From: Siphonodentalium dalli
Taxonomy: Eukaryota; Mollusca; Scaphopoda; Gadilida; Siphonodentaliidae
Length of the DNA stretch: 64,000 nucleotides
NCBI GenBank assembly: GCA_032622095.1
Contig: CP136064.1
Location: 558,001 to 622,000 of the forward strand
Direction: 5' to 3'
Part shown: piece by piece, positions 3,056-64,000 of the stretch
Numbering within the stretch: the stretch's first letter is position 1
Layout of the letters: each line of letters begins with the position of its first letter
Translations under genes and position numbers: made by a program
The notes under the pieces: model-generated
Told to the model about the DNA's origin: nothing
Database searches by the model: none
What the model saw: the letters and a program-made list of their open reading frames with translations, nothing else

Positions 3056-6000
3056 TTACTTATGTCCCTTTAAGTTGAGATACATCTGTTCCTTTAAACA
3101 TACATTTTCATTCCACCATGAAGATATATATTTTGTGCAGTCATTGTAAATGACAACCCGATTCGGATATGGCCAGATTTGACATGGCGCGGTATGGAGA
3201 AACATGCGCCAAATTGAAAATATCCAACAGTACTCCACCATGGAACCAGTCTATTGCAGATACCCCTTAAAGTTGGTGACTGTGTTACTTATGTCCCTTT
3301 AAGTTGAGATACATCTGTTCCTTTAAACATACATTTGCATTCCACCATGAAGATATAAATTTTCTGCAGTCATTGTAAATGACAACCCGATTCGGATATG
3401 GCCAGATTTGACATGGCGCGGTATGGAGAAACATGCGCCAAGTAGAAAATATCCAACCGTACTCCACCATGGAACCATTCTAAATCAGACACCTCTTTAA
3501 GTTGGTGACTGTGTTACTTATGTCCCTTTAAGTTGAGATACATCTGTTCCTTTAAACATACATTTGCATTCCAACATGAAGATATATATTTTCTGCAGTC
3601 ATTGTAAATGACAACCCGATTCGGATATGGCCAGATTTGACATGGCGCGGTATGGAGAAACATGCGCCAAATTGAAAATATCCAACCGTACTCCACCATG
3701 GAACCAGTCTATAGCAGATACCCCTTTAAGTTGGTGACTGTGTTACTTATGTCCCTTTAAGTTGAGATACATCTGTTCCTTTAAACATACATTTGCATTC
3801 CAACATGAAGATATATATTTTCTGCAGTCATTGTAAATGACAACCCGATTCGGATATGGCCAGATTTGACATGGCGCGGTATGGAGAAACATGCGCCAAA
3901 TTGAAAATATCCAACCGTACTCCACCATGGAACCAGTCTATAGCAGATACCCCTTTAAGTTGGTGACTGTGTTACTTATGTCCCTTTAAGTTGAGATACA
4001 TCTGTTCCTTTAAACATACATTTGCTTTCCAACATGAAGATATTTATTTTCTGTAGTCATTGTAAATGACAACCCGATTCGGATATGGCCAGATTTGACA
4101 TGGCGCGGTATGGAAAAACATGCGCCAAATTGAAAATATCCAACCGTACTCCACCATGGAACCAGTCTATAGCAGATACCCCTTAAAGTTGGTGACTGTG
4201 TTACTTATGTCCCTTTAAGTTGAGATACATCTGTTCCTTTAAACATACATTTGCATTCCAACATGAAGATATTTATTTTCTGTAGTCATTGTAAATGACA
4301 ACCCGATTCGGATATGGCCAGATTTGACATGGCGCGGTAGGGAGAAACATGCGCCAAATTGAAAATATCCAACAGTACTCCACCATGGAACCAGTCTATA
4401 GCAGATACCCCTTAAAGTTGGTGACTGTGTTACTTATGTTCCTTTAAGTTGAGATACATCTGTTTCTTTAAACATACATTTGCATTCCAACATGAAGATA
4501 TTTATTTTCTGTAGTCATTGTAAATGACAACCCGATTCGGATATGGCCAGATTTGACATGGCACGGTATGGAGAAACATGCGCCAAATAGAAAATATCCA
4601 ACCGTACTCCACCATTGAACCAGTCTATAGCAGATACCCCTTAAAGTTGGTGACTGTGTTACTTATGTCCCTTTAAGTTGAGATACATCTGTTCCTTTAA
4701 ACATACATTTGCATTCCAACATGAAGATATTTATTTTCTGTAGTCATTGTAAATGACAACCCGATTCGGATATGGCCAGATTTGACATGGCGCGGTAGGG
4801 AGAAACATGCGCCAAATTGAAAATATCCAACAGTACTCCACCATGGAACCAGTCTATAGCAGATACCCCTTAAAGTTGGTGACTGTGTTACTTATGTCCC
4901 TTTAAGTTGAGATACATCTGTTTCTTTAAACATACATTTGCATTCCAACATGAAGATATTTATTTTCTGTAGTCATTGTAAATGACAACCCGATTCGGAT
5001 ATGGCCAGATTTGACATGGCGCGGTATGGAGAAACATGCGCCAAATAGAAAATATCCAACCGTACTCCACCATGGAACCAGTCTATAGCAGATACCCCTT
5101 AAAGTTGGTAACTGTGTTACTTATGTCCCTTTAAGTTGAGATACATCTGTTCCTTTAAACATACATTTGCATTCCAACATGAAGATATTTATTTTCTGTA
5201 GTCATTGTAAATGACAACCCGATTCGGATATGGCCAGATTTGACATGGCGCGGTATGGAGAAACATGCGCCAAATAGAAAATATCCAACCGTACTCCACC
5301 ATGGATCCAGTCTAAATCAGACACCTCTTTAAGTTGGTGACTGTGTTACTTATGTTCCTTTAAGTTGAGATACATCTGTTCCTTTAAACATACATTTGCA
5401 TTCCAACATGAAGATATTTATTTTCTGTAGTCATTGTAAATGACAACCCGATTCGGATATGGCCAGATTTGACATGGCGCGGTATGGAGAAACATGCGCA
5501 AAATTGAAAATATCCAACCGTACTCCACCATGTAACCAGTCTATAGCAGATATCCCTTAAAGTTGGTGACGGTGTTACTTATGTCCCTTTAAGTTGAGAT
5601 ACATCTGTTCCTTTAAACATACATTTGCATTCCAACATGAAGATATATATTTTCTGCAGTCATTGTAAATGACAACCCGATTCGGATATGGCCAGATTTG
5701 ACATGGCGCGGTATGGAGAAACATGCGCCAAATTGAAAATATCCAACCGTACTCCACCATGGAACCAGTCTATAGCAGATACCCCTTAAAGTTGGTGACT
5801 GTGTTACTTATGTCCCTTTAAGTTGAGATACATCTGTTCCTTTAAACATACATTTGCATTCCAACATGAAGATATATATTTTCTGCAGTCATTGTAAATG
5901 ACAACCCGATTCGGATATGGCCAGATTTGACATGGCGCGGTATGGAGAAACAAGCGCCAAATTGAAAATATCCAACCGTATTCCACCATGGAACCAGTCT

Positions 6001-10818: not shown

Positions 10819-13800
10819 CCCCTTTAAGTTGGTGACTGTGTTACTTATGTCCCTTTAAGTTGAGATACATCTGTTCCTTTAAACATACATTTGCATTCCA
10901 ACATGAAGATATATATTTTCTGCAGTCATTGTAAATGACAACCCGATTCGGATATGGCCAGATTTGACATGGCGCGGTATGGAGAAACATGCGCCAAATT
11001 GAAAATATCCAACCGTACTCCACCATGGAACCAGTCTATAGCAGATACCCCTTTAAGTTGGTGACTGTGTTACTTATGTCCCTTTAAGTTGAGATACATC
11101 TGTTCCTTTAAACATACATTTGCTTTCCAACATGAAGATATTTATTTTCTGTAGTCATTGTAAATGACAACCCGATTCGGATATGGCCAGATTTGACATG
11201 GCGCGGTATGGAAAAACATGCGCCAAATTGAAAATATCCAACCGTACTCCACCATGGAACCAGTCTATAGCAGATACCCCTTAAAGTTGGTGACTGTGTT
11301 ACTTATGTCCCTTTAAGTTGAGATACATCTGTTCCTTTAAACATACATTTGCATTCCAACATGAAGATATATATTTTCTGCAGTCATTGTAAATGACAAC
11401 CCGATTCGGATATGGCCAGATTTGACATGGCGCGGTATGGAGAAACATGCGCCAAATTGAAAATATCCAACCGTACTCCACCATGGAACCAGTCTATAGC
11501 AGATACCCCTTAAAGTTGGTGACTGTGTTACTTATGTCCCTTTAAGTTGAGATACATCTGTTCCTTTAAACATACATTTGCATTCCAACATGAAGATATA
11601 TATTTTCTGCAGTCATTGTAAATGACAACCCGATTCGGATATGGCCAGATTTGACATGGCGCGGTATGGAGAAACAAGCGCCAAATTGAAAATATCCAAC
11701 CGTATTCCACCATGGAACCAGTCTATAGCAGATACCCCTTAAAGTTGGTGACTGTGTTACTTATGTCCCTTTAAGTTGAGATACATCTGTTTCTTTAACA
11801 TACATTTGCATTCCACCATGAAGATATAAATCTTCTGCAGTCATTGTAATTGACAACCCGATTCGGATAGGGCCAGATTTGACATGACGCGGTATGGAGA
11901 AACATGCGCCAAATTGAAAATATCCAACCGTACTCCACCATGGAACCAGTCTATATCAGACACCCCTTTAAGTTGGTGACTGTGTTACTTATGTCCCTTT
12001 AAGTTGAGATACATCTGTTCCTTTAAACATACATTTGCATTCCAACATGAAGATATATATTTTCTGCAGTCATTGTAAATGACAACCCGATTCGGATATG
12101 GCCAGATTTGACATGGCGCAGTATGGAGAAACATGCGCCAAATTGAAAATATCCAACCGTACTCCACCATGGAACCAGTCTATAGCAGATACCCCTTTAA
12201 GTTGGTGACTGTGTTACTTATGTCCCTTTAAGTTGAGATACATCTGTTCCTTTAAACATACATTTGCATTCCAACATGAAGATATATATTTTCTGCAGTC
12301 ATTGTAAATGACAACCCGATTCGGATATGGCCAGATTTGACATGGCGCGGTATGGAGAAACATGCGCCAAATTGAAAATATCCAACCGTACTCCACCATG
12401 GAACCAGTCTATAGCAGATACCCCTTTAAGTTGGTGACTGTGTTACTTATGTCCCTTTAAGTTGAGATACATCTGTTCCTTTAAACATACATTTGCTTTC
12501 CAACATGAAGATATTTATTTTCTGTAGTCATTGTAAATGACAACCCGATTCGGATATGGCCAGATTTGACATGGCGCGGTATGGAAAAACATGCGCCAAA
12601 TTGAAAATATCCAACCGTACTCCACCATGGAACCAGTCTATAGCAGATACCCCTTAAAGTTGGTGACTGTGTTACTTATGTCCCTTTAAGTTGAGATACA
12701 TCTGTTCCTTTAAACATACATTTGCATTCCAACATGAAGATATATATTTTCTGCAGTCATTGTAAATGACAACCCGATTCGGATATGGCCAGATTTGACA
12801 TGGCGCGGTATGGAGAAACATGCGCCAAATTGAAAATATCCAACCGTACTCCACCATGGAACCAGTCTATAGCAGATACCCCTTAAAGTTGGTGACTGTG
12901 TTACTTATGTCCCTTTAAGTTGAGATACATCTGTTCCTTTAAACATACATTTGCATTCCAACATGAAGATATATATTTTCTGCAGTCATTGTAAATGACA
13001 ACCCGATTCGGATATGGCCAGATTTGACATGGCGCGGTATGGAAAAACATGCGCCAAATTGAAAATATCCAACCGTACTCCACCATGGAACCAGTCTATA
13101 GCAGATACCCCTTAAAGTTGGTGACTGTGTTACTTATGTCCCTTTAAGTTGAGATACATCTGTTCCTTTAAACATACATTTGCATTCCAACATGAAGATA
13201 TATATTTTCTGCAGTCATTGTAAATGACAACCCGATTCGGATATGGCCAGATTTGACATGGCGCGGTATGGAGAAACATGCGCCAAATTGAAAATATCCA
13301 ACCGTACTCCACCATGGAACCAGTCTATAGCAGATACCCCTTAAAGTTGGTGACTGTGTTACTTATGTCCCTTTAAGTTGAGATACATCTGTTCCTTTAA
13401 ACATACATTTGCATTCCAACATGAAGATATATATTTTCTGCAGTCATTGTAAATGACAACCCGATTCGGATATGGCCAGATTTGACATGGCGCGGTATGG
13501 AGAAACATGCGCCAAATTGAAAATATCCAACCGTACTCCACCATGGAACCAGTCTATAGCAGATACCCCTTTAAGTTGGTGACTGTGTTACTTATGTCCC
13601 TTTAAGTTGAGATACATCTGTTCCTTTAAACATACATTTGCTTTCCAACATGAAGATATTTATTTTCTGTAGTCATTGTAAATGACAACCCGATTCGGAT
13701 ATGGCCAGATTTGACATGGCGCGGTATGGAAAAACATGCGCCAAATTGAAAATATCCAACCGTACTCCACCATGGAACCAGTCTATAGCAGATACCCCTT

Positions 13801-16800
13801 AAAGTTGGTGACTGTGTTACTTATGTCCCTTTAAGTTGAGATACATCTGTTCCTTTAAACATACATTTGCATTCCAACATGAAGATATATATTTTCTGCA
13901 GTCATTGTAAATGACAACCCGATTCGGATATGGCCAGATTTGACATGGCGCGGTATGGAGAAACATGCGCCAAATTGAAAATATCCAACCGTACTCCACC
14001 ATGGAACCAGTCTATAGCAGATACCCCTTAAAGTTGGTGACTGTGTTACTTATGTCCCTTTAAGTTGAGATACATCTGTTCCTTTAAACATACATTTGCA
14101 TTCCAACATGAAGATATATATTTTCTGCAGTCATTGTAAATGACAACCCGATTCGGATATGGCCAGATTTGACATGGCGCGGTATGGAGAAACAAGCGCC
14201 AAATTGAAAATATCCAACCGTATTCCACCATGGAACCAGTCTATAGCAGATACCCCTTAAAGTTGGTGACTGTGTTACTTATGTCCCTTTAAGTTGAGAT
14301 ACATCTGTTTCTTTAACATACATTTGCATTCCACCATGAAGATATAAATCTTCTGCAGTCATTGTAATTGACAACCCGATTCGGATAGGGCCAGATTTGA
14401 CATGACGCGGTATGGAGAAACATGCGCCAAATTGAAAATATCCAACCGTACTCCACCATGGAACCAGTCTATATCAGACACCCCTTTAAGTTGGTGACTG
14501 TGTTACTTATGTCCCTTTAAGTTGAGATACATCTGTTCCTTTAAACATACATTTGCATTCCACCATGAAGATATATATTTTCTGCAGTCATTGTAAATGA
14601 CAACCCGATTCGGATATGGCCAGATTTGACATGGCGCGGTATGGAGAAACATGCGCCAAATTGAAAATATCCAACCGTACTCCACCATGGAACCAGTCTA
14701 TAGCAGATACCCCTTTAAGTTGGTGACTGTGTTGCTTATGTCCCTTTAAGTTGAGATACATCTGTTCCTTTAAACATACATTTGCATTCCAACATGAAGA
14801 TATTTATTTTCTGTAGTCATTGTAAATGACAACCCGATTCGGATATGGCCAGATTTGACATGGCGCGGTATGGAGAAACATGCGCCAAATTGAAAATATC
14901 CAACCGTACTCCACCATGGAACCAGTCTATAGCAGATACCCCTTAAAGTTGGTGACTGTGTTACTTATGTCCCTTTAAGTTGAGATACATCTGTTCCTTT
15001 AAACATACATTTGCATTCCAACATGAAGATATTTATTTTCTGTAGTCATTGTAAATGACAACCCGATTCGGATATGGCCAGATTTGACAAGGCGCGGTAT
15101 GGAGAAACATGCGCCAAATTGAAAATATCCAACAGTACTCCACCATGGAACCAGTCTATAGCAGATACCCCTTAAAGTTGGTGACTGTGTTACTTATGTC
15201 CCTTTAAGTTGAGATACATCTGTTCCTTTAAACATACATTTGCATTCCAACATGAAGATATTTAATTTCTGTAGTCATTGTAAATGACAACCCGATTCGG
15301 ATATGGCCAGATTTGACATGGCGCGGTATGGAGAAACATGCGCCAAGTAGAAAATATCCAACCGTACTCCACCATGGAACCAGTCTATAGCAGATACCCC
15401 TTAAAGTTGGTGACTGTGTTACTTATGTCCCTTTAAGTTGAGATACATCTGTTCCTTTAAACATACATTTGCATTCCAACATGAAGATATATATTTTCTG
15501 CAGTCATTGTAAATGACAACCCGATTCGGATATGGCCAGATTTGACATGGCGCGGTATGGAGAAACATGCGCCAAATTGAAAATATCCAACCGTACTCCA
15601 CCATGGAACCAGTCTATAGCAGATACCCCTTAAAGTTGGTGACTGTGTTACTTATGTCCCTTTAAGTTGAGATACATCTGTTCCTTTAAACATACATTTG
15701 CATTCCAACATGAAGATATATATTTTCTGCAGTCATTGTAAATGACAACCCGATTCGGATATGGCCAGATTTGACATGGCGCGGTATGGAGAAACAAGCG
15801 CCAAATTGAAAATATCCAACCGTATTCCACCATGGAACCAGTCTATAGCAGATACCCCTTAAAGTTGGTGACTGTGTTACTTATGTCCCTTTAAGTTGAG
15901 ATACATCTGTTTCTTTAACATACATTTGCATTCCACCATGAAGATATAAATCTTCTGCAGTCATTGTAATTGACAACCCGATTCGGATAGGGCCAGATTT
16001 GACATGACGCGGTATGGAGAAACATGCGCCAAATTGAAAATATCCAACCGTACTCCACCATGGAACCAGTCTATATCAGACACCCCTTTAAGTTGGTGAC
16101 TGTGTTACTTATGTCCCTTTAAGTTGAGATACATCTGTTCCTTTAAACATACATTTGCATTCCAACATGAAGATATATATTTTCTGCAGTCATTGTAAAT
16201 GACAACCCGATTCGGATATGGCCAGATTTGACATGGCGCAGTATGGAGAAACATGCGCCAAATTGAAAATATCCAACCGTACTCCACCATGGAACCAGTC
16301 TATAGCAGATACCCCTTTAAGTTGGTGACTGTGTTACTTATGTCCCTTTAAGTTGAGATACATCTGTTCCTTTAAACATACATTTGCATTCCAACATGAA
16401 GATATATATTTTCTGCAGTCATTGTAAATGACAACCCGATTCGGATATGGCCAGATTTGACATGGCGCGGTATGGAGAAACATGCGCCAAATTGAAAATA
16501 TCCAACCGTACTCCACCATGGAACCAGTCTATAGCAGATACCCCTTTAAGTTGGTGACTGTGTTACTTATGTCCCTTTAAGTTGAGATACATCTGTTCCT
16601 TTAAACATACATTTGCTTTCCAACATGAAGATATTTATTTTCTGTAGTCATTGTAAATGACAACCCGATTCGGATATGGCCAGATTTGACATGGCGCGGT
16701 ATGGAAAAACATGCGCCAAATTGAAAATATCCAACCGTACTCCACCATGGAACCAGTCTATAGCAGATACCCCTTAAAGTTGGTGACTGTGTTACTTATG

Positions 16801-19800
16801 TCCCTTTAAGTTGAGATACATCTGTTCCTTTAAACATACATTTGCATTCCAACATGAAGATATATATTTTCTGCAGTCATTGTAAATGACAACCCGATTC
16901 GGATATGGCCAGATTTGACATGGCGCGGTATGGAGAAACATGCGCCAAATTGAAAATATCCAACCGTACTCCACCATGGAACCAGTCTATAGCAGATACC
17001 CCTTAAAGTTGGTGACTGTGTTACTTATGTCCCTTTAAGTTGAGATACATCTGTTCCTTTAAACATACATTTGCATTCCAACATGAAGATATATATTTTC
17101 TGCAGTCATTGTAAATGACAACCCGATTCGGATATGGCCAGATTTGACATGGCGCGGTATGGAAAAACATGCGCCAAATTGAAAATATCCAACCGTACTC
17201 CACCATGGAACCAGTCTATAGCAGATACCCCTTAAAGTTGGTGACTGTGTTACTTATGTCCCTTTAAGTTGAGATACATCTGTTCCTTTAAACATACATT
17301 TGCATTCCAACATGAAGATATATATTTTCTGCAGTCATTGTAAATGACAACCCGATTCGGATATGGCCAGATTTGACATGGCGCGGTATGGAGAAACATG
17401 CGCCAAATTGAAAATATCCAACCGTACTCCACCATGGAACCAGTCTATAGCAGATACCCCTTAAAGTTGGTGACTGTGTTACTTATGTCCCTTTAAGTTG
17501 AGATACATCTGTTCCTTTAAACATACATTTGCATTCCAACATGAAGATATATATTTTCTGCAGTCATTGTAAATGACAACCCGATTCGGATATGGCCAGA
17601 TTTGACATGGCGCGGTATGGAGAAACATGCGCCAAATTGAAAATATCCAACCGTACTCCACCATGGAACCAGTCTATAGCAGATACCCCTTTAAGTTGGT
17701 GACTGTGTTACTTATGTCCCTTTAAGTTGAGATACATCTGTTCCTTTAAACATACATTTGCTTTCCAACATGAAGATATTTATTTTCTGTAGTCATTGTA
17801 AATGACAACCCGATTCGGATATGGCCAGATTTGACATGGCGCGGTATGGAAAAACATGCGCCAAATTGAAAATATCCAACCGTACTCCACCATGGAACCA
17901 GTCTATAGCAGATACCCCTTAAAGTTGGTGACTGTGTTACTTATGTCCCTTTAAGTTGAGATACATCTGTTCCTTTAAACATACATTTGCATTCCAACAT
18001 GAAGATATATATTTTCTGCAGTCATTGTAAATGACAACCCGATTCGGATATGGCCAGATTTGACATGGCGCGGTATGGAGAAACATGCGCCAAATTGAAA
18101 ATATCCAACCGTACTCCACCATGGAACCAGTCTATAGCAGATACCCCTTAAAGTTGGTGACTGTGTTACTTATGTCCCTTTAAGTTGAGATACATCTGTT
18201 CCTTTAAACATACATTTGCATTCCAACATGAAGATATATATTTTCTGCAGTCATTGTAAATGACAACCCGATTCGGATATGGCCAGATTTGACATGGCGC
18301 GGTATGGAGAAACAAGCGCCAAATTGAAAATATCCAACCGTATTCCACCATGGAACCAGTCTATAGCAGATACCCCTTAAAGTTGGTGACTGTGTTACTT
18401 ATGTCCCTTTAAGTTGAGATACATCTGTTTCTTTAACATACATTTGCATTCCACCATGAAGATATAAATCTTCTGCAGTCATTGTAATTGACAACCCGAT
18501 TCGGATAGGGCCAGATTTGACATGACGCGGTATGGAGAAACATGCGCCAAATTGAAAATATCCAACCGTACTCCACCATGGAACCAGTCTATATCAGACA
18601 CCCCTTTAAGTTGGTGACTGTGTTACTTATGTCCCTTTAAGTTGAGATACATCTGTTCCTTTAAACATACATTTGCATTCCACCATGAAGATATATATTT
18701 TCTGCAGTCATTGTAAATGACAACCCGATTCGGATATGGCCAGATTTGACATGGCGCGGTATGGAGAAACATGCGCCAAATTGAAAATATCCAACCGTAC
18801 TCCACCATGGAACCAGTCTATAGCAGATACCCCTTTAAGTTGGTGACTGTGTTGCTTATGTCCCTTTAAGTTGAGATACATCTGTTCCTTTAAACATACA
18901 TTTGCATTCCAACATGAAGATATTTATTTTCTGTAGTCATTGTAAATGACAACCCGATTCGGATATGGCCAGATTTGACATGGCGCGGTATGGAGAAACA
19001 TGCGCCAAATTGAAAATATCCAACCGTACTCCACCATGGAACCAGTCTATAGCAGATACCCCTTAAAGTTGGTGACTGTGTTACTTATGTCCCTTTAAGT
19101 TGAGATACATCTGTTCCTTTAAACATACATTTGCATTCCAACATGAAGATATTTATTTTCTGTAGTCATTGTAAATGACAACCCGATTCGGATATGGCCA
19201 GATTTGACAAGGCGCGGTATGGAGAAACATGCGCCAAATTGAAAATATCCAACAGTACTCCACCATGGAACCAGTCTATAGCAGATACCCCTTAAAGTTG
19301 GTGACTGTGTTACTTATGTCCCTTTAAGTTGAGATACATCTGTTCCTTTAAACATACATTTGCATTCCAACATGAAGATATTTAATTTCTGTAGTCATTG
19401 TAAATGACAACCCGATTCGGATATGGCCAGATTTGACATGGCGCGGTATGGAGAAACATGCGCCAAGTAGAAAATATCCAACCGTACTCCACCATGGAAC
19501 CAGTCTATAGCAGATACCCCTTAAAGTTGGTGACTGTGTTACTTATGTCCCTTTAAGTTGAGATACATCTGTTCCTCTAAACATACATTTGCATTCCAAC
19601 ATGAAGATACTTATTTTCTGTAGTCATTGTAAATGACAACCCGATTCGGATATGGCCAGATTTGACATGGCGCGGTATGGAGAAACATGCGCCAAATAGA
19701 AAATATCCAACCGTACTCCACCATGGAACCAGTCTAAATCAGACACCTCTTTAAGTTGGTGACTGTGTTACTTATGTTCCTTTAAGTTGAGATACATCTG

Positions 19801-45400: not shown

Positions 45401-48161
45401 GTTGGTGACTGTGTTACTTATGTCCCTTTAAGTTGAGATACATCTGTTCCTCTAAACATACATTTGCATTCCAACATGAAGATACTTATTTTCTGTAGTC
45501 ATTGTAAATGACAACCCGATTCAGATATGGCCAGATTTGACATGGCGCGGTATGGAGAAACATGCGCCAAGTAGAAAATATCCAACCGTACTCCACCATG
45601 GAACCAGTCTAAATCAGACACCTCTTTAAGTTGGTGAATGTGTTACTTATGTCCCTTTAAGTTGAGATACATCTGTTCCTTTAAACATACATTTGCATTC
45701 CAACATGAAGATATTTATTTTCTGCAGTCATTGTAAATGACAACCCGATTCGGATATGGCCAGATTTGACATGGCGCGGTATGGAGAAACATGCGCCAAA
45801 TTGAAAATATCCAACCGTACTCCACCATGGAACCAGTCTATAGCAGATACCCCTTAAAGTTGGTGACTGTGTTACTTATGTCCCTTTAAGTTGAGATACA
45901 TCTGTTCCTTTAAACATACATTTGCATTCCACCATGAAGATATATATTTTCTGCAGTCATTGTAAATGACAACCCGATTCGGATAGGGCCAGATTTGACA
46001 TGGCGCGGTATGGAGAAACATGCGCCAAATAGAAAATATCCAACCGTACTCCACCATGGAACCAGTCTATAGCAGATACCCCTTTAAGTTGGTGACTGTG
46101 TTACTTATGTCCCTTTAAGTTGAGATACATCTGTTCCTTTAAACATACATTTGCATTCCACCATGAAGATATATATTTTCTGCAGTCATTGTAAATGACA
46201 ACCCGATTCGGATATGGCCAGATTTGACATGGCGCGGTATGGAGAAACATGCGCCAAATTGAAAATATCCAACCGTACTCCACCATGGAACCAGTCTATA
46301 GCAGATACCCCTTTAAGTTGGTAACTGTGTTACTTATGTCCCTTTAAGTTGAGATACATCTGTTCCTTTAAACATACATTTGCTTTCCAACATGAAGATA
46401 TTTATTTTCTGTAGTCATTGTAAATGACAACCCGATTCGGATATGGCCAGATTTGACATGGCGCGGTATGGAAAAACATGCGCCAAATTGAAAATATCCA
46501 ACCGTACTCCACCATGGAACCAGTCTATAGCAGATACCCCTTAAAGTTGGTGACTGTGTTACTTATGTCCCTTTAAGTTGAGATACATCTGTTCCTTTAA
46601 ACATACATTTGCATTCCAACATGAAGATATTTATTTTCTGTAGTCATTGTAAATGACAACCCGATTCGGATATGGCCAGATTTGACATGGCGCGGTATGG
46701 AGAAACATGCGCCAAATAGAAAATATCCAACCGTACTCCACCATGGAACCAGTCTATAGCAGATACCCCTTAAAGTTGGTGACTGTGTTACTTATGTCCC
46801 TTTAAGTTGAGATACATCTGTTCCTTTAAACATACATTTGCATTCCAACATGAAGATATTTATTTTCTGTAGTCATTGTAAATGACAACCCGATTCGGAT
46901 ATGGCCAGATTAGACATGGCGCGGTATGGAGAAACATGCGCCAAATAGAAAATATCCAACCGTACTCCACCATGGAACCAGTCTAAATCAGACACCTCTT
47001 TAAGTTGGTGACTGTGTTACTTATGTTCCTTTAAGTTGAGATACATCTGTTCCATTAAACATACATTTGCATTCCAACATGAAGATATATATTTTCTGCA
47101 GTCATTGTAAATGACAACCCGATTCGGATATGGCCAGATTTGACATGGCGCGGTATGGAGAAACATGCGCCAAATTGAAAATATCCAACCGTACTCCACC
47201 ATGGAACCAGACTATAGCAGATACCCCTTTAAGTTGGTGACTGTGTTACTTATGTCCCTTTAAGTTGAGATACATCTGTTCCTTTAAACATACATTTGCT
47301 TTCCAACATGAAGATATTTATTTTCTGTAGTCATTGTAAATGACAACCCGATTCGGATATGGCCAGATTTGACATGGCGCGGTATGGAAAAACATGCGCC
47401 AAATTGAAAATATCCAACCGTACTCCACCATGGAACCAGTCTATAGCAGATACCCCTTAAAGTTGGTGACTGTGTTACTTATGTCCCTTTAAGTTGAGAT
47501 ACATCTGTTCCTTTAAGCATACATTTGCATTCCAACATGAAGATATTTATTTTCTGTAGTCATTGTAAATGACAACCCGATTCGGATATGGCCAGATTTG
47601 ACATGGCGCAGTATGGAGAAACATGCGCCAAATTGAAAATATCCAACAGTACTCCACCATGGAACCAGTCTATAGCAGATACCCCTTAATGTTGGTGACT
47701 GTGTTACTTATGTTCCTTTAAGTTGAGATACATCTGTTTCTTTAAACATACATTTGCATTCCAACATGAAGATATTTATTTTCTGTAGTCATTGTAAATG
47801 ACAACCCGATTCGGATATGGCCAGATTTGACATGGCGCGGTATGGAGAAACATGCGCCAAATAGAAAATATCCAACCGTACTCCACCATGGAACCAGTCT
47901 ATAGCAGATACCCCTTAAAGTTGGTGACTGTGTTACTTATGTCCCTTTAAGTTGAGATACATCTGTTCCTTTAAACATACATTTGCATTCCAACATGAAG
48001 ATATTTATTTTCTGTAGTCATTGTAAATGACAACCCGATTCGGATATGGCCAGATTTCACATGACGCGGTAGGGAGAAACATGCGCCAAATTGAAAATAT
48101 CCAACAGTACTCCACCATGGAACCAGTCTATAGCAGATACCCCTTAAAGTTGGTGACGGTG
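41750..48161 (+). repeat. Right-zone HOR block, 28 monomers (6412 bp)
   Basis: Order: A' B' C1 C2 D F', a CAAATAG monomer (43124), I J K L M' N O P Q R, mixed monomers (45643, 45872), N D, three mixed monomers (46559, 46788, 47017), then D E F'' G/T. M' (44269) is full length with GTAAATGAC, unlike left-zone M. E (47475) has TTTAAGCATAC and GCGCAGTATGG. G/T (47933) has GATTTCACATGACG. Several of these marks recur exactly in the block from 51139. Confidence 0.78.
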
Positions 48162-50222
48162 TTACTTATGTCCCTTTAAGTTGAGATACATCTGTTCCTT
48201 TAAACATACATTTGCATTCCACCATGAAGATATTTATTTTCTGCAGTCATTGTAAATGACAACCCGATTCGGATATGGCCAGATTTGACATGGCGCGGTA
48301 TGGAGAAACATGCGCCAAATTGAAAATATCCAACAGTACTCCACCATGGAACCAGTCTATAGCAGATACCCCTTAAAGTTGGTGACTGTGTTACTTATGT
48401 CCCTTTAAGTTGAGATACATCTGTTCCTTTAAACATACATTTGCATTCCACCATGAAGATATATATTTTCTGCAGTCATTGTAAATGACAACCCGATTCG
48501 GATATGGCCAGATTTGACATGGCGCGGAATGGAGAAACATGCGCCAAGTAGAAAATATCCAACCGTACTCCACCATGGAACCATTCTAAATCAGACACCT
48601 CTTTAAGTTGGTGACTGTGTTACTTATGTCCCTTTAAGTTGAGATACATCTGTTCCTTTAAACATACATTTGCATTCCAACATGAAGATATTTATTTTCT
48701 GCAGTCATTGTAAATGACAACCCGATTCGGATATGGCCAGATTTGACATGGCGCGGTATGTAGAAACATGCGCAAAATTGAAAATATCCAACTGTACTCC
48801 ACCATGTAACCAGTCTATAGCAGATACCCCTTCAAGTTGGTGACGGTGTTACTTATGTCCCTTTAAGTTGAGATACATCTGTTCCTTTAAACATTCATTT
48901 GCATTCCACCATGAAGATATATATTTTCTGCAGTCATTGTAAATGACAACCCGATTCGGATATGGCCAGATTTGACATGGCGCGGTATGGAGAAACATGC
49001 GCCAAATTGAAAATATCCAACCGTACTCCACCATGTAACCAGTCTATAGCAGATACCCCTTAAAGTTGGTGACGGTGTTACTTATGTCCCTTTAAGTTGA
49101 GATACATCTGTTCCTTTAAACATACATTTGCATTCCAACATGAAGATATATATTTTCTGCAGTCATTGTAAATGACAACCCGATTCGGATATGGCCAGAT
49201 TTGACATGGCGCGGTATGGAGAAACATGCGCCAAATTGAAAATATCCAACCGTACTCCACCATGGAACCAGTCTATAGCAGATACCCCTTAAAGTTGGTG
49301 ACTGTGTTACTTATGTCCCTTTAAGTTGAGATACATCTGTTCCTTTAAACATATATTTGCATTCCACCATGAAGATATATATTTTCTGCAGTCATTGTAA
49401 ATGACAACCCGATTCGGATAGGGCCAGATTTGACATGGCGCGGTATGGAGAAACATGCGCCAAATTGAAAATATCCAACCGTACTCCACCATGTAACCAG
49501 TCTATAGCAGATACTCCTTTAAGTTGGTGACTGTGTTACTTATGTCCCTTTAAGTTGAGATACATCTGTTCCTTTAAACATACATTTGCATTCCACCATG
49601 AAGATATATATTTTCTGCAGTCATTGTAAATGACAACCCGATTCGGATATGGCCAGATTTGACATGGCGCGGTATGGAGAAACATGCGCCAAATTGAAAA
49701 TATCCAACAGTACTCCACCATGGAACCAGTCTATAGCAGATACCCCTTTAAGTTGGTGACTGTGTTACTTATGTCCCTTTAAGTTGAGATACATCTGTTC
49801 CTTTAAACATACATTTGCTTTCCAACATGAAGATATTTATTTTCTGTAGTCATTGTAAATGACAACCCGATTCGGATATGGCCAGATTTGACATGGCGCG
49901 GTAGGGAGAAACATGCGCCAAATTGAAAATATCCAACAGTACTCCACCATGGAACCAGTCTATAGCAGATACCCCTTAAAGTTGGTGACTGTGTTACTTA
50001 TGTCCCTTTAAGTTGAGATACATCTGTTTCTTTAAACATACATTTGCATTCCAACATGAAGATATTTATTTTCTGTAGTCATTGTAAATGACAACCCGAT
50101 TCGGATATGGCCAGATTTGACATGACGCGGTAGGGAGAAACATGCGCCAAATTGAAAATATCCAACAGTACTCCACCATGGAACCAGTCTATAGCAGATA
50201 CCCCTTAAAGTTGGTGACGGTG
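48162..50222 (+). repeat. Nine-monomer unit A' B'' S' U K V A' D/E T (2061 bp), copy 1
   Basis: Diagnostic states are S' with GTATGTAGAAAC (48620), U with ACATTCATTTG (48849), V with ACATATATTTG and GATACTCC (49307), and a D/E hybrid with GCTTTCC and GGTAGGG (49765). The same nine monomers recur at 55261-57321. Private differences in this copy include GCGGAATGG (about 48528) and CAACTGTACTCC (about 48800). Confidence 0.83.
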
Positions 50223-54100: not shown

Positions 54101-55260
54101 AAGTTGGTGACTGTGTTACTTATGTCCCTTTAAGTTGAGATACATCTGTTCCTCTAAACATACATTTGCATTCCAACATGAAGATACTTATTTTCTGTAG
54201 TCATTGTAAATGACAACCCGATTCGGATATGGCCAGATTTGACATGGCGCGGTATGGAGAAACATGCGCCAAGTAGAAAATATCCAACCGTACTCCACCA
54301 TGGAACCAGTCTAAATCAGACACCTCTTTAAGTTGGTGAATGTGTTACTTATGTCCCTTTAAGTTGAGATACATCTGTTCCTTTAAACATACATTTGCAT
54401 TCCAACATGAAGATATTTATTTTCTGCAGTCATTGTAAATGACAACCCGATTCGGATATGGCCAGATTTGACATGGCGCGGTATGGAAAAACATGCGCCA
54501 AATTGAAAATATCCAACCGTACTCCACCATGGAACCAGTCTATAGCAGATACCCCTTAAAGTTGGTGACTGTGTTACTTATGTCCCTTTAAGTTGAGATA
54601 CATCTGTTCCTTTAAGCATACATTTGCATTCCAACATGAAGATATTTATTTTCTGTAGTCATTGTAAATGACAACCCGATTCGGATATGGCCAGATTTGA
54701 CATGGCGCAGTATGGAGAAACATGCGCCAAATTGAAAATATCCAACAGTACTCCACCATGGAACCAGTCTATAGCAGATACCCCTTAATGTTGGTGACTG
54801 TGTTACTTATGTTCCTTTAAGTTGAGATACATCTGTTTCTTTAAACATACATTTGCATTCCAACATGAAGATATTTATTTTCTGTAGTCATTGTAAATGA
54901 CAACCCGATTCGGATATGGCCAGATTTGACATGGCGCGGTATGGAGAAACATGCGCCAAATAGAAAATATCCAACCGTACTCCACCATGGAACCAGTCTA
55001 TAGCAGATACCCCTTAAAGTTGGTGACTGTGTTACTTATGTCCCTTTAAGTTGAGATACATCTGTTCCTTTAAACATACATTTGCATTCCAACATGAAGA
55101 TATTTATTTTCTGTAGTCATTGTAAATGACAACCCGATTCGGATATGGCCAGATTTCACATGACGCGGTAGGGAGAAACATGCGCCAAATTGAAAATATC
55201 CAACAGTACTCCACCATGGAACCAGTCTATAGCAGATACCCCTTAAAGTTGGTGACGGTG
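51139..55260 (+). repeat. Right-zone HOR, 18 monomers (4122 bp)
   Basis: Order: A' B'' S' U K K L L/M M' N O P Q R, a fused monomer (54345), then E F'' G/T. The section M' to R matches 44269-45642 at an 8702-bp shift. The section from E onward matches 47475 onward at a 7099-bp shift. A' here begins with TTTCTTATG in its flank, as at 36941. The L/M monomer (52742) has CAAGCGCC with TTTCTTTAAAC. Confidence 0.8.
54345..54573 (+). repeat. Fused monomer marking a 7-monomer deletion
   Basis: The front matches monomer 45643 (GTGAATGTG flank, TTTATTTTCTGCAG). The back matches monomer 47246 (GGAAAAAC). The crossover lies between about 54430 and 54485. The shift to the related block drops from 8702 to 7099 bp across it, a loss of 1603 bp or exactly seven monomers. 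Confidence 0.82.
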
Positions 55261-57321
55261 TTACTTATGTCCCTTTAAGTTGAGATACATCTGTTCCTTT
55301 AAACATACATTTGCATTCCACCATGAAGATATTTATTTTCTGCAGTCATTGTAAATGACAACCCGATTCGGATATTGCCAGATTTGACATGGCGCGGTAT
55401 GGAGAAACATGCGCCAAATTGAAAATATCCAACAGTACTCCACCATGGAACCAGTCTATAGCAGATACCCCTTAAAGTTGGTGACTGTGTTACTTATGTC
55501 CCTTTAAGTTGAGATACATCTGTTCCTTTAAACATACATTTGCATTCCACCATGAAGATATATATTTTCTGCAGTCATTGTAAATGACAACCCGATTCGG
55601 ATATGGCCAGATTTGACATGGCGCGGTATGGAGAAACATGCGCCAAGTAGAAAATATCCAACCGTACTCCACCATGGAACCATTCTAAATCAGACACCTC
55701 TTTAAGTTGGTGACTGTGTTACTTATGTCCCTTTAAGTTGAGATACATCTGTTCCTTTAAACATACATTTGCATTCCAACATGAAGATATTTATTTTCTG
55801 CAGTCATTGTAAATGACAACCCGATTCGGATATGGCCAGATTTGACATGGCGCGGTATGTAGAAACATGCGCAAAATTGAAAATATCCAACCGTACTCCA
55901 CCATGTAACCAGTCTATAGCAGATACCCCTTCAAGTTGGTGACGGTGTTACTTATGTCCCTTTAAGTTGAGATACATCTGTTCCTTTAAACATTCATTTG
56001 CATTCCACCATGAAGATATATATTTTCTGCAGTCATTGTAAATGACAACCCGATTCAGATATGGCCAGATTTGACATGGCGCGGTATGGAGAAACATGCG
56101 CCAAATTGAAAATATCCAACCGTACTCCACCATGTAACCAGTCTATAGCAGATACCCCTTAAAGTTGGTGACGGTGTTACTTATGTCCCTTTAAGTTGAG
56201 ATACATCTGTTCCTTTAAACATACATTTGCATTCCAACATGAAGATATATATTTTCTGCAGTCATTGTAAATGACAACCCGATTCGGATATGGCCAGATT
56301 TGACATGGCGCGGTATGGAGAAACATGCGCCAAATTGAAAATATCCAACTGTACTCCACCATGGAACCAGTCTATAGCAGATACCCCTTAAAGTTGGTGA
56401 CTGTGTTACTTATGTCCCTTTAAGTTGAGATACATCTGTTCCTTTAAACATATATTTGCATTCCACCATGAAGATATATATTTTCTGCAGTCATTGTAAA
56501 TGACAACCCGATTCGGATAGGGCCAGATTTGACATGGCGCGGTATGGAGAAACATGCGCCAAATTGAAAATATCCAACCGTACTCCACCATGTAACCAGT
56601 CTATAGCAGATACCCCTTTAAGTTGGTGACTGTGTTACTTATGTCCCTTTAAGTTGAGATACATCTGTTCCTTTAAACATACATTTGCATTCCACCATGA
56701 AGATATATATTTTCTGCAGTCATTGTAAATGACAACCCGATTCGGATATGGCCAGATTTGACATGGCGCGGTATGGAGAAACATGCGCCAAATTGAAAAT
56801 ATCCAACAGTACTCCACCATGGAACCAGTCTATAGCAGATACCCCTTTAAGTTGGTGACTGTGTTACTTATGTCCCTTTAAGTTGAGATACATCTGTTCC
56901 TTTAAACATACATTTGCTTTCCAACATGAAGATATTTATTTTCTGTAGTCATTGTAAATGACAACCCGATTCGGATATGGCCAGATTTGACATGGCGCGG
57001 TAGGGAGAAACATGCGCCAAATTGAAAATATCCAACAGTACTCCACCATGGAACCAGTCTATAGCAGATACCCCTTAAAGTTGGTGACTGTGTTACTTAT
57101 GTCCCTTTAAGTTGAGATACATCTGTTTCTTTAAACATACATTTGCATTCCAACATGAAGATATTTATTTTCTGTAGTCATTGTAAATGACAACCCGATT
57201 CGGATATGGCCAGATTTGACATGACGCGGTAGGGAGAAACATGCGCCAAATTGAAAATATCCAACAGTACTCCACCATGGAACCAGTCTATAGCAGATAC
57301 CCCTTAAAGTTGGTGACGGTG
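55261..57321 (+). repeat. Nine-monomer unit A' B'' S' U K V A' D/E T (2061 bp), copy 2
   Basis: It matches 48162-50222 monomer for monomer at a 7099-bp shift. Private differences are GATATTGCC in A' (about 55373), TTCAGATATGG in U (about 56056) and CAACTGTACTCC in K (about 56346). The match also extends left through E, F'' and G/T to about 54485. Confidence 0.83.
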
Positions 57322-59153
57322 TTACTTATGTCCCTTTAAGTTGAGATACATCTGTTCCTTTAAACATACATTTGCATTCCACCATGAAGATATATATTTT
57401 CTGCAGTCATTGTAAATGACAACCCGATTCGGATATGGCCAGATTTGACATGGCGCGGTATGGAGAAACATGCGCCAAATTGAAAATATCCAACAGTACT
57501 CCACCATGGAACCAGTCTATAGCAGATACCCCTTAAAGTTGGTGACTGTGTTACTTATGTCCCTTTAAGTTGAGATACATCTGTTCCTTTAAACATACAT
57601 TTGCATTCCACCATGAAGATATATATTTTCTGCAGTCATTGTAAATGACAACCCGATTCGGATATGGCCAGATTTGACATGGCGCGGTATGGAGAAACAT
57701 GCGCCAAGTAGAAAATATCCAACCGTACTCCACCATGGAACCATTCTAAATCAGACACCTCTTTAAGTTGGTGACTGTGTTACTTATGTCCCTTTAAGTT
57801 GAGATACATCTGTTCCTTTAAACATACATTTGCATTCCAACATGAAGATATTTATTTTCTGCAGTCATTGTAAATGACAACCCGATTCGGATATGGCCAG
57901 ATTTGACATGGCGCGGTATGGAGAAACATGCGCAAAATTGAAAATATCCAACCGTACTCCACCATGTAACCAGTCTATAGCAGATACCCCTTCAAGTTGG
58001 TGACGGTGTTACTTATGTCCCTTTAAGTTGAGATACATCTGTTCCTTTAAACATTCATTTGCATTCCACCATGAAGATATATATTTTCTGCAGTCATTGT
58101 AAATGACAACCCGATTCGGATATGGCCAGATTTGACATGGCGCGGTATGGAGAAACATGCGCCAAATTGAAAATATCCAACCGTACTCCACCATGTAACC
58201 AGTCTATAGCAGATACCCCTTAAAGTTGGTGACGGTGTTACTTATGTCCCTTTAAGTTGAGATACATCTGTTCCTTTAAACATACATTTGCATTCCAACA
58301 TGAAGATATATATTTTCTGCAGTCATTGTAAATGACAACCCGATTCGGATATGGCCAGATTTGACATGGCGCGGTATGGAGAAACATGCGCCAAATTGAA
58401 AATATCCAACCGTACTCCACCATGGAACCAGTCTATAGCAGATACCCCTTAAAGTTGGTGACTGTGTTACTTATGTCCCTTTAAGTTGAGATACATCTGT
58501 TCCTTTAAACATACATTTGCATTCCAACATGAAGATATTTATTTTCTGTAGTCATTGTAAATGACAACCCGATTCGGATATGGCCAGATTTGACATGGCG
58601 CGGTAGGGAGAAACATGCGCCAAATTGAAAATATCCAACAGTACTCCACCATGGAACCAGTCTATAGCAGATACCCCTTAAAGTTGGTGACTGTGTTACT
58701 TATGTCCCTTTAAGTTGAGATACATCTGTTTCTTTAAACATACATTTGCATTCCAACATGAAGATATTTATTTTCTGTAGTCATTGTAAATGACAATCCG
58801 ATTCGGATATGGCCAGATTTGACATGGCGCGGTATGGAGAAACATGCGCCAAATAGAAAATATCCAACCGTACTCCACCATGGAACCAGTCTATAGCAGA
58901 TACCCCTTAAAGTTGGTGACTGTGTTACTTATGTCCCTTTAAGTTGAGATACATCTGTTCCTTCAAACATACATTTGCATTCCAACATGAAGATATTTAT
59001 TTTCTGTAGTCATTGTAAATGACAACTCGATTCGGATATGGCCAGATTTGACATGGCGCGGTATGGAGAAACATGCGCCAAATAGAAAATATCCAACCGT
59101 ACTCCACCATGGAACCAGTCTAAATCAGACACCTCTTTAAGTTGGTGACTGTG

Positions 59154-59382
59154 TTGCTTATGTTCCTTTAAGTTGAGATACATCCGTTCCTTTAAACATA
59201 CATTTGCACTGCAACATGAAGATATATATTTTCTGTAGTCATGGTAAATGACAACCCGATTCGGATATGGCCAGATTTGACATGGCGCGGTATGGAGAAA
59301 GATGCGCAAAATTGAAAATATCCAACCGTACTCCACCATGTAACCAGTCTATAGCAGATACCCCTTAAAGTTGGTGACTGTG
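59154..59382 (+). repeat. Divergent S-like monomer
   Basis: It carries an unusual load of changes: GTTGCTTATG, ACATCCGTT, GCACTGCAAC, ATATATTTTCTGTAG (mixed class), CATGGTAAATG (breaks the dyad) and GAAAGATGCGC. Monomer 61166 is its sister, with ACATCCGTT and GCATTGCAAC but without most of the other changes. The density of private changes suggests weaker homogenisation near the orientation switches. Confidence 0.75.
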
Positions 59383-60687
59383 TTACTTATGTCCCTTTAA
59401 GTTGAGATACATCTGTTTCTTTAAACATACATTTGCATTCCAACATGAAGATATTTATTTTCTGTAGTCATTGTAAATGACAACCCGATTCGGATATGGC
59501 CAGATTTCACATGACGCGGTAGGGAGAAACATGCGCCAAATTGAAAATATCCAACAGTACTCCACCATGGAACCAGTCTATAGCAGATACCCCTTAAAGT
59601 TGGTGACGGTGTTACTTATGTCCCTTTAAGTTGAGATACATCTGTTCCTTTAAACATACATTTGCATTCCAACATGAAGATATATATTTTCTGCAGTCAT
59701 TGTAAATGACAACCCGATTCGGATATGGCCAGATTTGACATGGCGCGGTATGGAGAAACATGCGCCAAATTGAAAATATCCAACCGTACTCCACCATGGA
59801 ACCAGTCTATAGCAGATACCCCTTAAAGTTGGTGACTGTGTTACTTATGTCCCTTTAAGTTGAGATACATCTGTTCCTTTAAACATACATTTGCATTCCA
59901 ACATGAAGATATATATTTTCTGCAGTCATTGTAAATGACAACCCGATTCGGATATGGCCAGATTTGACATGGCGCGGTATGGAGAAACATGCGCCAAATT
60001 GAAAATATCCAACCGTACTCCACCATAGAACCAGTCTATAGCAGATACCCCTTTAAGTTGGTGACTGTGTTACTTATGTCCCTTTAAGTTGAGATACATC
60101 TGTTCCTTTAAACATACATTTGCTTTCCAACATGAAGATATTTATTTTCTGTAGTCATTGTAAATGACAACCCGATTCGGATATGGCCAGATTTGACATG
60201 GCGCGGTATGGAAAAACATGCGCCAAATTGAAAATATCCAACCGTACTCCACCATGGAACCAGTCTATAGCAGATACCCCTTAAAGTTGGTGACTGTGTT
60301 ACTTATGTTCCTTTAAGTTGAGATACATCTGTTTCTTTAAACATACATTTGCATTCCAACATGAAGATATTTATTTTCTGTAGTCATTGTAAATGACAAC
60401 CCGATTCGGATATGGCCAGATTTGACATGGCGCGGTATGGAGAAACATGCGCCAAATAGAAAATATCCAACCGTACTCCACCATGGAACCAGTCTATAGC
60501 AGATACCCCTTAAAGTTGGTGACTGTGTTACTTATGTCCCTTTAAGTTGAGATACATCTGTTCCTTTAAACATACATTTGCATTCCAACATGAAGATATT
60601 TATTTTCTGTAGTCATTGTAAATGACAACCCGATTCGGATATGGCCAGATTTCACATGACGCGGTAGGGAGAAACATGCGCCAAATT

Positions 60688-60695
60688 GAAAATAT
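60688..60695. other. Inversion junction 1 with 8-bp microhomology
   Basis: Forward sequence ends TTGAAAATAT and minus-orientation sequence begins CAGAAAATATATATC. GAAAATAT is common to both, so the exact breakpoint can lie anywhere within these eight bases. No foreign bases are inserted. Confidence 0.85.
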
Positions 60696-61105
60696 ATATC
60701 TTCATGTTGCAGTGCAAATGTATGTTTAAAGGAACGGATGTATCTCAACTTAAAGGAACATAAGTAACACAGTCACCAACTTAAAGAGGTGTCTGATTTA
60801 GACTGGTTCCATGGTGGAGTACGGTTGGATATTTTCTATTTGGCGCATGTTTCTCCATACCGCGCCATGTCAAATCTGGCCATATCCGAATCGGGTTGTC
60901 ATTTACAATGACTACAGAAAATAAATATCTTCATGTTGGAATGCAAATGTATGTTTGAAGGAACAGATGTATCTCAACTTAAAGGGACATAAGTAACACA
61001 GTCACCAACTTTAAGGGGTATCTGCTATAGACTGGTTCCATGGTGGAGTACGGTTGGATATTTTCTATTTGGCGCATGTTTCTCCATACCGCGCCATGTC
61101 AAATC
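60696..61105 (-). repeat. Short inverted satellite segment (about 1.8 monomers)
   Basis: CATAAGTAA anchors, the reverse complement of TTACTTATG, end at 60767 and 60996, 229 bp apart, so the repeat phase is normal within the inverted piece. It corresponds to part of the 59154 monomer, all of 58925 and the end of 58696, read backwards. Confidence 0.88.
61103..61105. other. Inversion junction 2 (return to forward)
   Basis: Minus sequence GCCATGTCAAATC joins forward sequence ATCCAACCGTACTCC, sharing ATC. The forward sequence resumes at the equivalent of 59091, a shift of 2012 bp. Confidence 0.82.
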
Positions 61106-62031
61106 CAACCGTACTCCACCATGGAACCAGTCTAAATCATACACCTCTTTAAGTTGGTGACTGTGTTACTTATGTTCCTTTAAGTTGAGATACATCCGTT
61201 CCTTTAAACATACATTTGCATTGCAACATGAAGATATATATTTTCTGTAGTCATTGTAAATGACAACCCGATTCGGATATGGCCAGATTTGACATGGCGC
61301 GGTATGGAGAAACATGCGCAAAATTGAAAATATCCAACCGTACTCCACCATGTAACCAGTCTATAGCAGATACCCCTTAAAGTTGGTGACTGTGTTACTT
61401 ATGTCCCTTTAAGTTGAGATACATCTGTTTCTTTAAACATACATTTGCATTCCAACATGAAGATATTTATTTTCTGTAGTCATTGTAAATGACAACCCGA
61501 TTCGGATATGGCCAGATTTCACATGACGCGGTAGGGAGAAACATGCGCCAAATTGAAAATATCCAACAGTACTCCACCATGGAACCAGTCTATAGCAGAT
61601 ACCCCTTAAAGTTGGTGACGGTGTTACTTATGTCCCTTTAAGTTGAGATACATCTGTTCCTTTAAACATACATTTGCATTCCAACATGAAGATATATATT
61701 TTCTGCAGTCATTGTAAATGACAACCCGATTCGGATATGGCCAGATTTGACATGGCGCGGTATGGAGAAACATGCGCCAAATTGAAAATATCCAACCGTA
61801 CTCCACCATGGAACCAGTCTATAGCAGATACCCCTTAAAGTTGGTGACTGTGTTACTTATGTCCCTTTAAGTTGAGATACATCTGTTTCTTCAAACATAC
61901 ATTTGCATTCCAACATGAAGATATTTATTTTCTGTAGTCATTGTAAATGACAACCCGATTCGGATATGGCCAGATTTGACATGGCGCGGTATGGAGAAAC
62001 ATGCGCCAAATAGAAAATATCCAACCGTACT
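61106..62031 (+). repeat. Forward satellite island (about 4 monomers)
   Basis: Its monomers start at 61166, 61395, 61624 and 61853. The first three match 59154, 59383 and 59612 at a 2012-bp shift (ACATCCGTT, then GATTTCACATGACG, then K). From about 61888 the match fails: 61853 has TTTCTTCAAAC, CTGTAG and CAAATAG where 59841 has a K body. It is truncated at junction 3. Confidence 0.85.
62029..62031. other. Inversion junction 3
   Basis: Forward CCAACCGTACT joins minus-orientation CTTTAAGGGGTATCTGC, sharing ACT. The forward monomer is cut within its CCAACCGTACTCCACC segment. The array stays inverted from here to the window end. Confidence 0.82.
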
Positions 62032-64000
62032 TTAAGGGGTATCTGCTATAGACTGGTTACATGGTGGAGTACTGTTGGATATTTTCAATTTGGCGCATGT
62101 TTCTCCCTACCGCGCCATGTCAAATCTGGCCATATCCGAATCGGGTTGTCATTTACAATGACTACAGAAAATAAATATCTTCATGTTGGAATGCAAATGT
62201 ATGTTTAAAGAAACGGATGTATCTCAACTTAAAGGAACATAAGTAACACAGTCACCAACTTAAAGGGGTATCTGCTATAGACTGGTTCCATGGTGGAGTA
62301 CTGTTGGATATTTTCAATTTGGCGCATGTTTCTCCCTACCGCGCCATGTCAAATCTGGCCATATCCGAATCGGGTTGTCATTTACAATGACTACAGAAAA
62401 TAAATATCTTCATGTTGGAATGCAAATGTATGTTTAAAGAAACGGATGTATCTCAACTTAAAGGAACATAAGTAACACAGTCACCAACTTAAAGGGGTAT
62501 CTGCTATAGACTGGTTCTATGGTGGAGTACGGTTGGATATTTTCAATTTGGCGCATGTTTCTCCCTACCGCGCCATGTCAAATCTGGCCATATCCGAATC
62601 GGGTTGTCATTTACAATGACTACAGAAAATAAATATCTTCATGGTGGAATGAAAATGTATGTTTAAAGGAACAGATGTAACTCAACTTTAAGGGACATAA
62701 GTAACACAGTCACCAACTTAAAGAGGTGTCTGATTTAGACTGGTTCCATGGTGGAGTACGGTTGGATATTTTCTATTTGGCGCATGTTTCTCCATACCGC
62801 GCCATGTCAAATCTGGCCATATCCGAATCGGGTTGTCATTTACAATGACTACAGAAAATAAATATCTTCATGTTGGAATGCAAATGTATGTTTAAAGAAA
62901 CGGATGTATCTCAACTTAAAGGAACATAAGTAACACAGTCACCAACTTAAAGAGGTGTCTGATTTAGACTGGTTCCATGGTGGAGTACGGTTGGATATTT
63001 TCTATTTGGCGCATGTTTCTCCATACCGCGCCATGTCAAATCTGGCCATATCCGAATCGGGTTGTCATTTACAATGACTACAGAAAATAAATATCTTCAT
63101 GTTGGAATGCAAATGTATGTTTGAAGAAACAGATGTATCTCAACTTAAAGGAACATAAGTAACACAGTCACCAACTTAAAGAGGTGTCTGATTTAGACTG
63201 GTTCCATGGTGGAGTACGGTTGGATATTTTCAATTTGGCGCATGTTTCTCCATACCGCGCCATGTCAAATCTGGCCATATCCGAATCGGGTTGTCATTTA
63301 CAATGACTGCAGAAAATATATATCTTCATGTTGGAATGCAAATGTATGTTTAAAGGAACAGATGTATCTCAACTTAAAGGGACATAAGTAACACAGTCAC
63401 CAACTTTAAGGGGTATCTGCTATAGACTGGTTCCATGGTGGAGTACGGTTGGATATTTTCAATTTGGCGCATGTTTCTCCCTACCGCGCCATGTCAAATC
63501 TGGCCATATCCGAATCGGGTTGTCATTTACAATGACTGCAGAAAATATATATCTTCATGTTGGAATGCAAATGTATGTTTAAAGGAACAGATGTATCTCA
63601 ACTTAAAGGGACATAAGTAACACCGTCACCAACTTTAAGGGATATCTGCTATAGACTGGTTACATGGTGGAGTACGGTTGGATATTTTCAATTTTGCGCA
63701 TGTTTCTCCATACCGCGCCATGTCAAATCTGGCCATATCCGAATCGGGTTGTCATTTACAATGACTACAGAAAATAAATATCTTCATGTTGGAATGCAAA
63801 TGTATGTTTAAAGGAACAGATGTATCTCAACTTAAAGGAACATAAGTAACACAGTCACCAACTTAAAGAGGTGTCTGATTTAGACTGGTTCCATGGTGGA
63901 GTACGGTTGGATATTTTCTATTTGGCGCATGTTTCTCCATACCGCGCCATGTCAAATCTGGCCATATCCGAATCGGGTTGTCATTTACAATGACTACAGA
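62032..64000 (-). repeat. Inverted array (about 8.6 monomers), continues off the window
   Basis: CATAAGTAA anchors end at 62246, 62475, 62704, 62933, 63162, 63391, 63620 and 63849, all 229 bp apart. Read backwards from the window end, the order is I-like, J, K-like with GGTAGGG, C1/K-like, two GTTCC monomers with CTAAATCAG tails, an A-like monomer (TTTTCATTCCACC, with TTGAGTTAC), and two GTTCC/GGTAGGG/CAACAG monomers. This order and some combinations (CAACAG with CATGTAACC) do not occur in the forward zones, so its source probably lies outside this window. Confidence 0.88.

Follow-up and report, generated by a model that had tools for sequence, protein, structure and literature searches.

How a satellite array comes to turn around for a few hundred bases, return to its former orientation, and soon afterwards turn around lastingly is the question raised by the right-hand end of this locus. 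The whole window (the 64-kb stretch of DNA analyzed here) is a satellite array with a monomer of 229 bp. A forward array occupies positions 1–60695 on the plus strand, followed by an inverted stretch at 60688–61105 (minus strand), a forward stretch at 61103–62031 (plus strand), and an inverted array at 62032–64000 (minus strand), which begins at the flip at 62029–62031 and reaches the end of the window. All 11 reverse-strand matches to a 22-base monomer motif, with at most 4 substitutions allowed, fall within the two inverted stretches. The sequence thus holds three junctions: entry into the inverted piece (J1), exit from it (J2), and the lasting flip (J3). As a 40-base word, each of them occurs once in the window.

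The inverted insertion adds 409 bases (60696–61104, minus strand), or 418 when the microhomologies at both ends are counted. The first-pass annotation had proposed that this piece is colinear, without change of length, with 58816–59233 (plus strand; hereafter site A) read on the other strand, and that it shares the rare variants found there. The alignment bears this out: a gap-free pairing of site A with the reverse complement of 60688–61105 agrees at 416 of 418 positions. When all ungapped placements throughout the window were compared, on either strand, site A ranked first, with two runners-up at 413/418, and no monomer pair matches the piece better. The inverted array at 62029–64000 was rejected as the source of the whole piece: despite one exact match of 216 bp, its best placement reaches only 406/418, and site A surpasses it over the full length of the piece. 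The match in question joins 60745–60960 to 62911–63126 in the same orientation and includes the rare 98C.

Identity of 416/418 is in itself weak evidence for a template, because 84.8% of the 263 forward windows of 418 bp examined for partners have one at two or fewer mismatches; a partner this close that also leads its runner-up by at least 3 was found for 10.6% of them. The main weight for site A as template rests on rare variants. Among 15 sites at which piece or template departs from the consensus, 13 departures are common to both. Carriers were counted over 284 monomer records, partial monomers included: phase 114C has two, which are the template and the piece themselves, and 116G, 98C, and 90C have 3, 4, and 6, respectively, with every carrier of the four variants lying between 58.8 and 63.2 kb. 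At the two sites that differ (59027 T and 59156 G), it is site A that departs from the consensus while the piece retains the consensus base, and 59027 T is a singleton in the window. Site A probably changed after being copied, since it is derived at both differing sites, once by a singleton; the true template may also have been a sister, or another copy beyond the window.

The flanks of the insertion are informative about how it arose. Motifs on either side of it lie 638 bp apart, equal to 229 + 409, and the forward array therefore resumes exactly where it left off, making this a clean 409-bp insertion between forward flanks in exact register. Seven monomers (1,603 bp) before the exit point lies 59091, the position to whose equivalent forward sequence had earlier been said to return, and correctly so. 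Had the point of return been free, an in-register return would be expected at 4 of 1,187 enumerated 3-bp junctions. The opposite orientation of the piece might recall an inversion of 418 bp in place, which would keep the distance between the flanks and add nothing; unless a compensating deletion is assumed, this can be dismissed with near certainty, because forward sequence is taken up again without loss of register after 409 added bases, and site A is still present.

Geometry and register would also fit a four-point event within one replication fork, in which the complementary strand was copied across its own position and the flanks were converted later; exit and return share one point, an opposite-strand copy lies nearby, and the copied interval would reach 277 and 141 bases to either side of the exit point. 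However, the piece fits its own site (60419–60836 of the empty site) worse than it fits site A, with 7 mismatches against 2, and the flanks lack 98C and 114C at the matching places. We consider such an origin very unlikely. As described in the excerpted text of PMC7954356, four-point switches likewise make an inverted copy there and back at one point, but those of the gold-standard great-ape set have a median of 12 and a maximum of 128 bases, as compared with 418 bases here and a best template seven monomers away.

Short matches mark all three junctions. At J1, the array enters the inverted piece through GAAAATAT (8 bp; 60688–60695, plus strand), which pairs with ATATTTTC at 59226–59233; at J2, it leaves through ATC (3 bp; 61103–61105, plus strand), and the forward array returns in register with 60695. 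The lasting flip at 62029–62031 carries ACT (3 bp). The microhomologies at the two ends of the piece had been recognized in the first-pass annotation exactly as given here, and only the longer one goes beyond chance. When 136,713 forward-to-inverted junction placements were enumerated, combining the left-flank monomer with the template region, 8 bp of microhomology occurred in 26 (P 0.00019) and none was longer, and microhomology of at least 3 bp had a P of 0.06 among the enumerated placements. The J1 microhomology exceeds chance; those of 3 bp at J2 and J3, taken singly, lie within it. We regard it as well supported that the site at 58.8–59.2 kb served as template for an inverted copy guided by microhomology. 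At site A the inverted 8-bp arms are separated by a spacer of 133 bp. Single-strand folding was rejected as a driver of the switch: the DNA of 59000–59240 (z −0.62) and of 60467–60695 (z +0.32) folds no better than its shuffles.

The junctions were read from the assembled sequence alone, and three orientation changes inside 1.4 kb of a 64-kb window are what a fold-back chimera or a misjoin in repeats might leave behind. Against such an assembly or read artefact, at both of the positions that distinguish the piece from site A the derived base is the one in site A, and the register is exact across the insertion. A simple fold-back read is also expected to have little or no spacer, and here 1,454 bp separate the fold point from the start of the copy. 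We therefore judge an artefact unlikely.

The insertion coincides with a change in the source of the surrounding sequence. The left flank (60286–60695, plus strand) ends at the exit point in GAAAATAT, and its 410 bp are identical to both 54790–55199 and 47691–48100; identity to both is lost at the sixth base past the exit point. The relation to site A at a seven-monomer shift extends only 8 bp to the left of the insertion, and the source haplotype therefore switches no more than 13 bp from the insertion point. A break this sharp was found at 0.55% of boundaries in 2000–58600, and at 0.8% of those in the same range that have an exact left source of at least 300 bp. This change of source at the junction is consistent with a template switch, the class of event to which the inverted piece had been assigned at first.

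To the right of the insertion, a forward patch (61105–61887, plus strand) is nearest to site A and the sequence downstream of it, seven monomers back in register. Site A leads by a small margin, with 5 mismatches over the first 775 bp as against 7 for the next source; within the patch, 61500–61887 matches 59488–59875 exactly over 388 bp, and this match is unique. Position 61221 is T, whereas both site A and the inverted piece have C. This is the main evidence against a single event in which one template served for both patches, the inverted and the forward; a later point change, or a forward patch older than the insertion, would explain it.

The latter possibility belongs to a simpler account, in which the forward patch and the flip, having arisen independently, were already there when a double-strand break at 60695 was repaired with a copy of site A. 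That copy could have been put in by end joining, either synthesis-dependent or theta-mediated, or by the capture of a loose fragment, with both flanks kept; the exact register, with nothing lost, agrees with this, as does 61221. When the piece is excised, moreover, the joined flanks as a whole are best described by the seven-monomer shift (26 mismatches, as compared with 36 for the next), which leaves room for an older seven-monomer duplication; for the four left monomers alone, 22 other shifts do better than that of seven monomers. However, an independent insertion would have had to fall at the very point where the source haplotype switches, with so sharp a break at so few boundaries of the array, and on balance this account appears doubtful.

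Immediately before the lasting flip, which lies 0.93 kb past the inverted piece, a further patch (61864–62031, plus strand) equals the reverse complement of 62984–63151 in the inverted array without mismatch over 168 bp. This is its sole other exact copy in the window, and the patch overlaps the unique 388-bp match by 24 bp. A single place on the minus strand, which lies within the inverted piece, differs from it by one base, as do ten on the plus strand. Over the somewhat longer interval 61840–62031, the sole difference from the inverted piece is at 61888; site A departs both there and at the position of its singleton, and the rare 98C separates the interval from the nearest forward place shown. 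The origin of 61864–62031 rests on these positions, namely 61888 T as against the inverted piece and the rare 98C as against the ten forward places.

We thus read three patches between the two arrays: site A copied in inverted orientation, site A copied forward in register, and a match to the opposite array. Their sources are close by, and for this nearness the ordinary forward array, with forward partners only, served as the baseline. There, all best partners were as near for 6 of 246 segments of 418 bp (within 2.1 kb), 3 of 244 of 770 bp (2.1 kb), and 6 of 672 of 168 bp (1.5 kb); any one best partner was as near for 35/246, 11/244, and 158/672, respectively. The variants 90C, 98C, and 16A are common to the inverted array and the left neighbourhood, occur in no other forward monomer of the window, and point to exchange across orientation. 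The flip itself is not a fresh fold-back of forward sequence from within the window, because the 500 bp with which the inverted array starts match the forward array at 489/500 at best. The 1,336 bp of 60696–62031 can be read as a mosaic put together from local sequence and set between arrays of opposite orientation.

What the sequence itself shows is that the piece is an inverted copy, which template in the window is closest to it, that the return is in register, that the source changes at the junction, and that each patch has its nearest relative close by. The explanation we prefer, with a probability of roughly 0.55, is microhomology-guided serial template switching, by MMBIR or by templated end joining, that bridged the two arrays; with it, the copy, the entry through 8 bp, the return in register, and the source change are all accounted for. 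It would have taken place inside the 229-bp satellite array, while a break or a collapsed replication fork was being repaired. A forward 3′ end at 60695 would anneal through GAAAATAT to ATATTTTC at 59226–59233, on a site A template provided by the same molecule or by the sister chromatid; 418 bases would be copied backward to 58816, followed by release. The strand would then re-engage site A in register through ATC and copy forward for about 0.78 kb, and would finally be joined to the inverted array at 62032 by way of the patch at 61864–62031 that matches that array. These steps may have formed one event or a close series, with synthesis running in the direction described, and the pathway may have been MMBIR/FoSTeS or polymerase-theta or synthesis-dependent end joining. 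It is possible, though we lean somewhat against it, that the lasting orientation change was built by the same run of local switches, with 1.3 kb of filler drawn from both sides and the 418-bp piece as its first stitch.

The first-pass annotation had held that two nearby switches of FoSTeS/MMBIR type explain all that it described. What survives of this is the templated, microhomology-guided inverted copy; two switches do not cover the next 0.93 kb, a patchwork that ends in the lasting flip. The source change at the junction fits a template switch. Sequence alone leaves FoSTeS/MMBIR, fold-back repair, and end joining, whether by polymerase theta or synthesis-dependent, indistinguishable, and it does not decide the number of events. 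Like FoSTeS/MMBIR products, the locus has serial nearby copies in both orientations, microhomology at the switches (8, 3, and 3 bp, only the 8 bp being beyond chance), and a template copy that is not lost, 58816–59233 still being in place; it differs in lying inside a satellite with an in-register return, and its assignment to this pathway is putative.

Other repair processes show partial likeness. Polymerase theta and synthesis-dependent end joining, in the partial accounts drawn on here, insert a microhomology-primed copy without loss of the flanks, and the present insertion is likewise templated near the break by a short microhomology; 418 bases seems long for a templated insertion of either kind.

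Human fold-back junctions, according to the portion of PMC3907307 consulted, have inverted microhomology of 2–8 bp at 13 junctions, spacers of 766–70,466 bp, and local insertions. The inverted microhomology (8 bp) and the spacer (1,454 bp) found here resemble these. A fold-back inverted duplication, however, would carry its inverted sequence onward as a long duplication, and the locus differs from one in this respect, its inverted copy being short and giving way to forward sequence after 418 bp. In the extract of PMC10766183, ODIRA involves interrupted inverted repeats of 2–14 bp with arms within a hundred bp. A switch at a short interrupted inverted repeat, with the 8-bp arms at site A, is the point of similarity with that extract; the spacer here is 133 bp, and the likeness is drawn from sequence features, amplification and origin forming no part of it. 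Recurrent orientation switches and macro-dyad symmetries are described for Tribolium satellites (PMC13081366, in the part available), in which direct and inverted subarrays of one satellite meet at a junction, as they do here; in contrast, the switch sites in that part of the account are described as conserved, and J1, J2, and J3 are single in the window.

The process is one already known, and this case is a well-resolved example of it, readable to the base inside a satellite. Among the literature matches listed for comparable events, no evident instance of the same case appeared, which does not prove that none exists. Because the copies of a satellite resemble one another so closely, it is difficult to trace how its strand switches arose; at this locus, each patch can be assigned a likely source through variants confined to the neighbourhood, and the order of steps—annealing, copying back, in-register return, bridging to the opposite array—is thus open to testing. 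If true, the reading would count in favour of replication or repair guided by microhomology being among the ways in which satellites change orientation, in agreement with the proposal of BIR/MMBIR for satellite centromeres in the section of PMC8997354 consulted; microhomology-guided break repair has also been proposed for maize CEN10 (PMC4806543, likewise in part). Should the filler reading prove general, orientation switches in satellites would be traces left by switch repair rather than inversions.

The satellite itself was compared with other records. An Rfam search of 58000–64000 at gathering thresholds matched no RNA element, and one exact 22-base satellite pattern had 0 matches in viral_contigs and 0 in genome_contigs. 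Six words of 16–18 bases from the satellite found no match in the literature; none of the 229-bp repeats among the literature matches listed was equated with the present satellite, and the passages seen of PMC11573200 and PMC9026859 give no satellite sequence for comparison.

Several further features of the array were observed. The 505 bp at 58797–59301, at the template, hold four of the window's 33 singleton variants; a mutation cluster caused by the event was rejected there, given a comparable group of four further singletons at 2902–3135. Amid the 229-bp monomers of 5974–34821, eight are of 227, 228, or 230 bp, and four of these eight, at 11698–18564, are of 228 bp with the rare variant phase 135C in common. 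Adjacent monomers of the inverted array, 62060–62288 and 62289–62517, are identical over all 229 bp. Rare variants in 47517–49354 and 54616–56453 are paired at a distance of 7,099 bp, or 31 monomers (e.g., 47690/54789 and 48761/55860), and these pairs suggest that the array contains a large segmental repeat.
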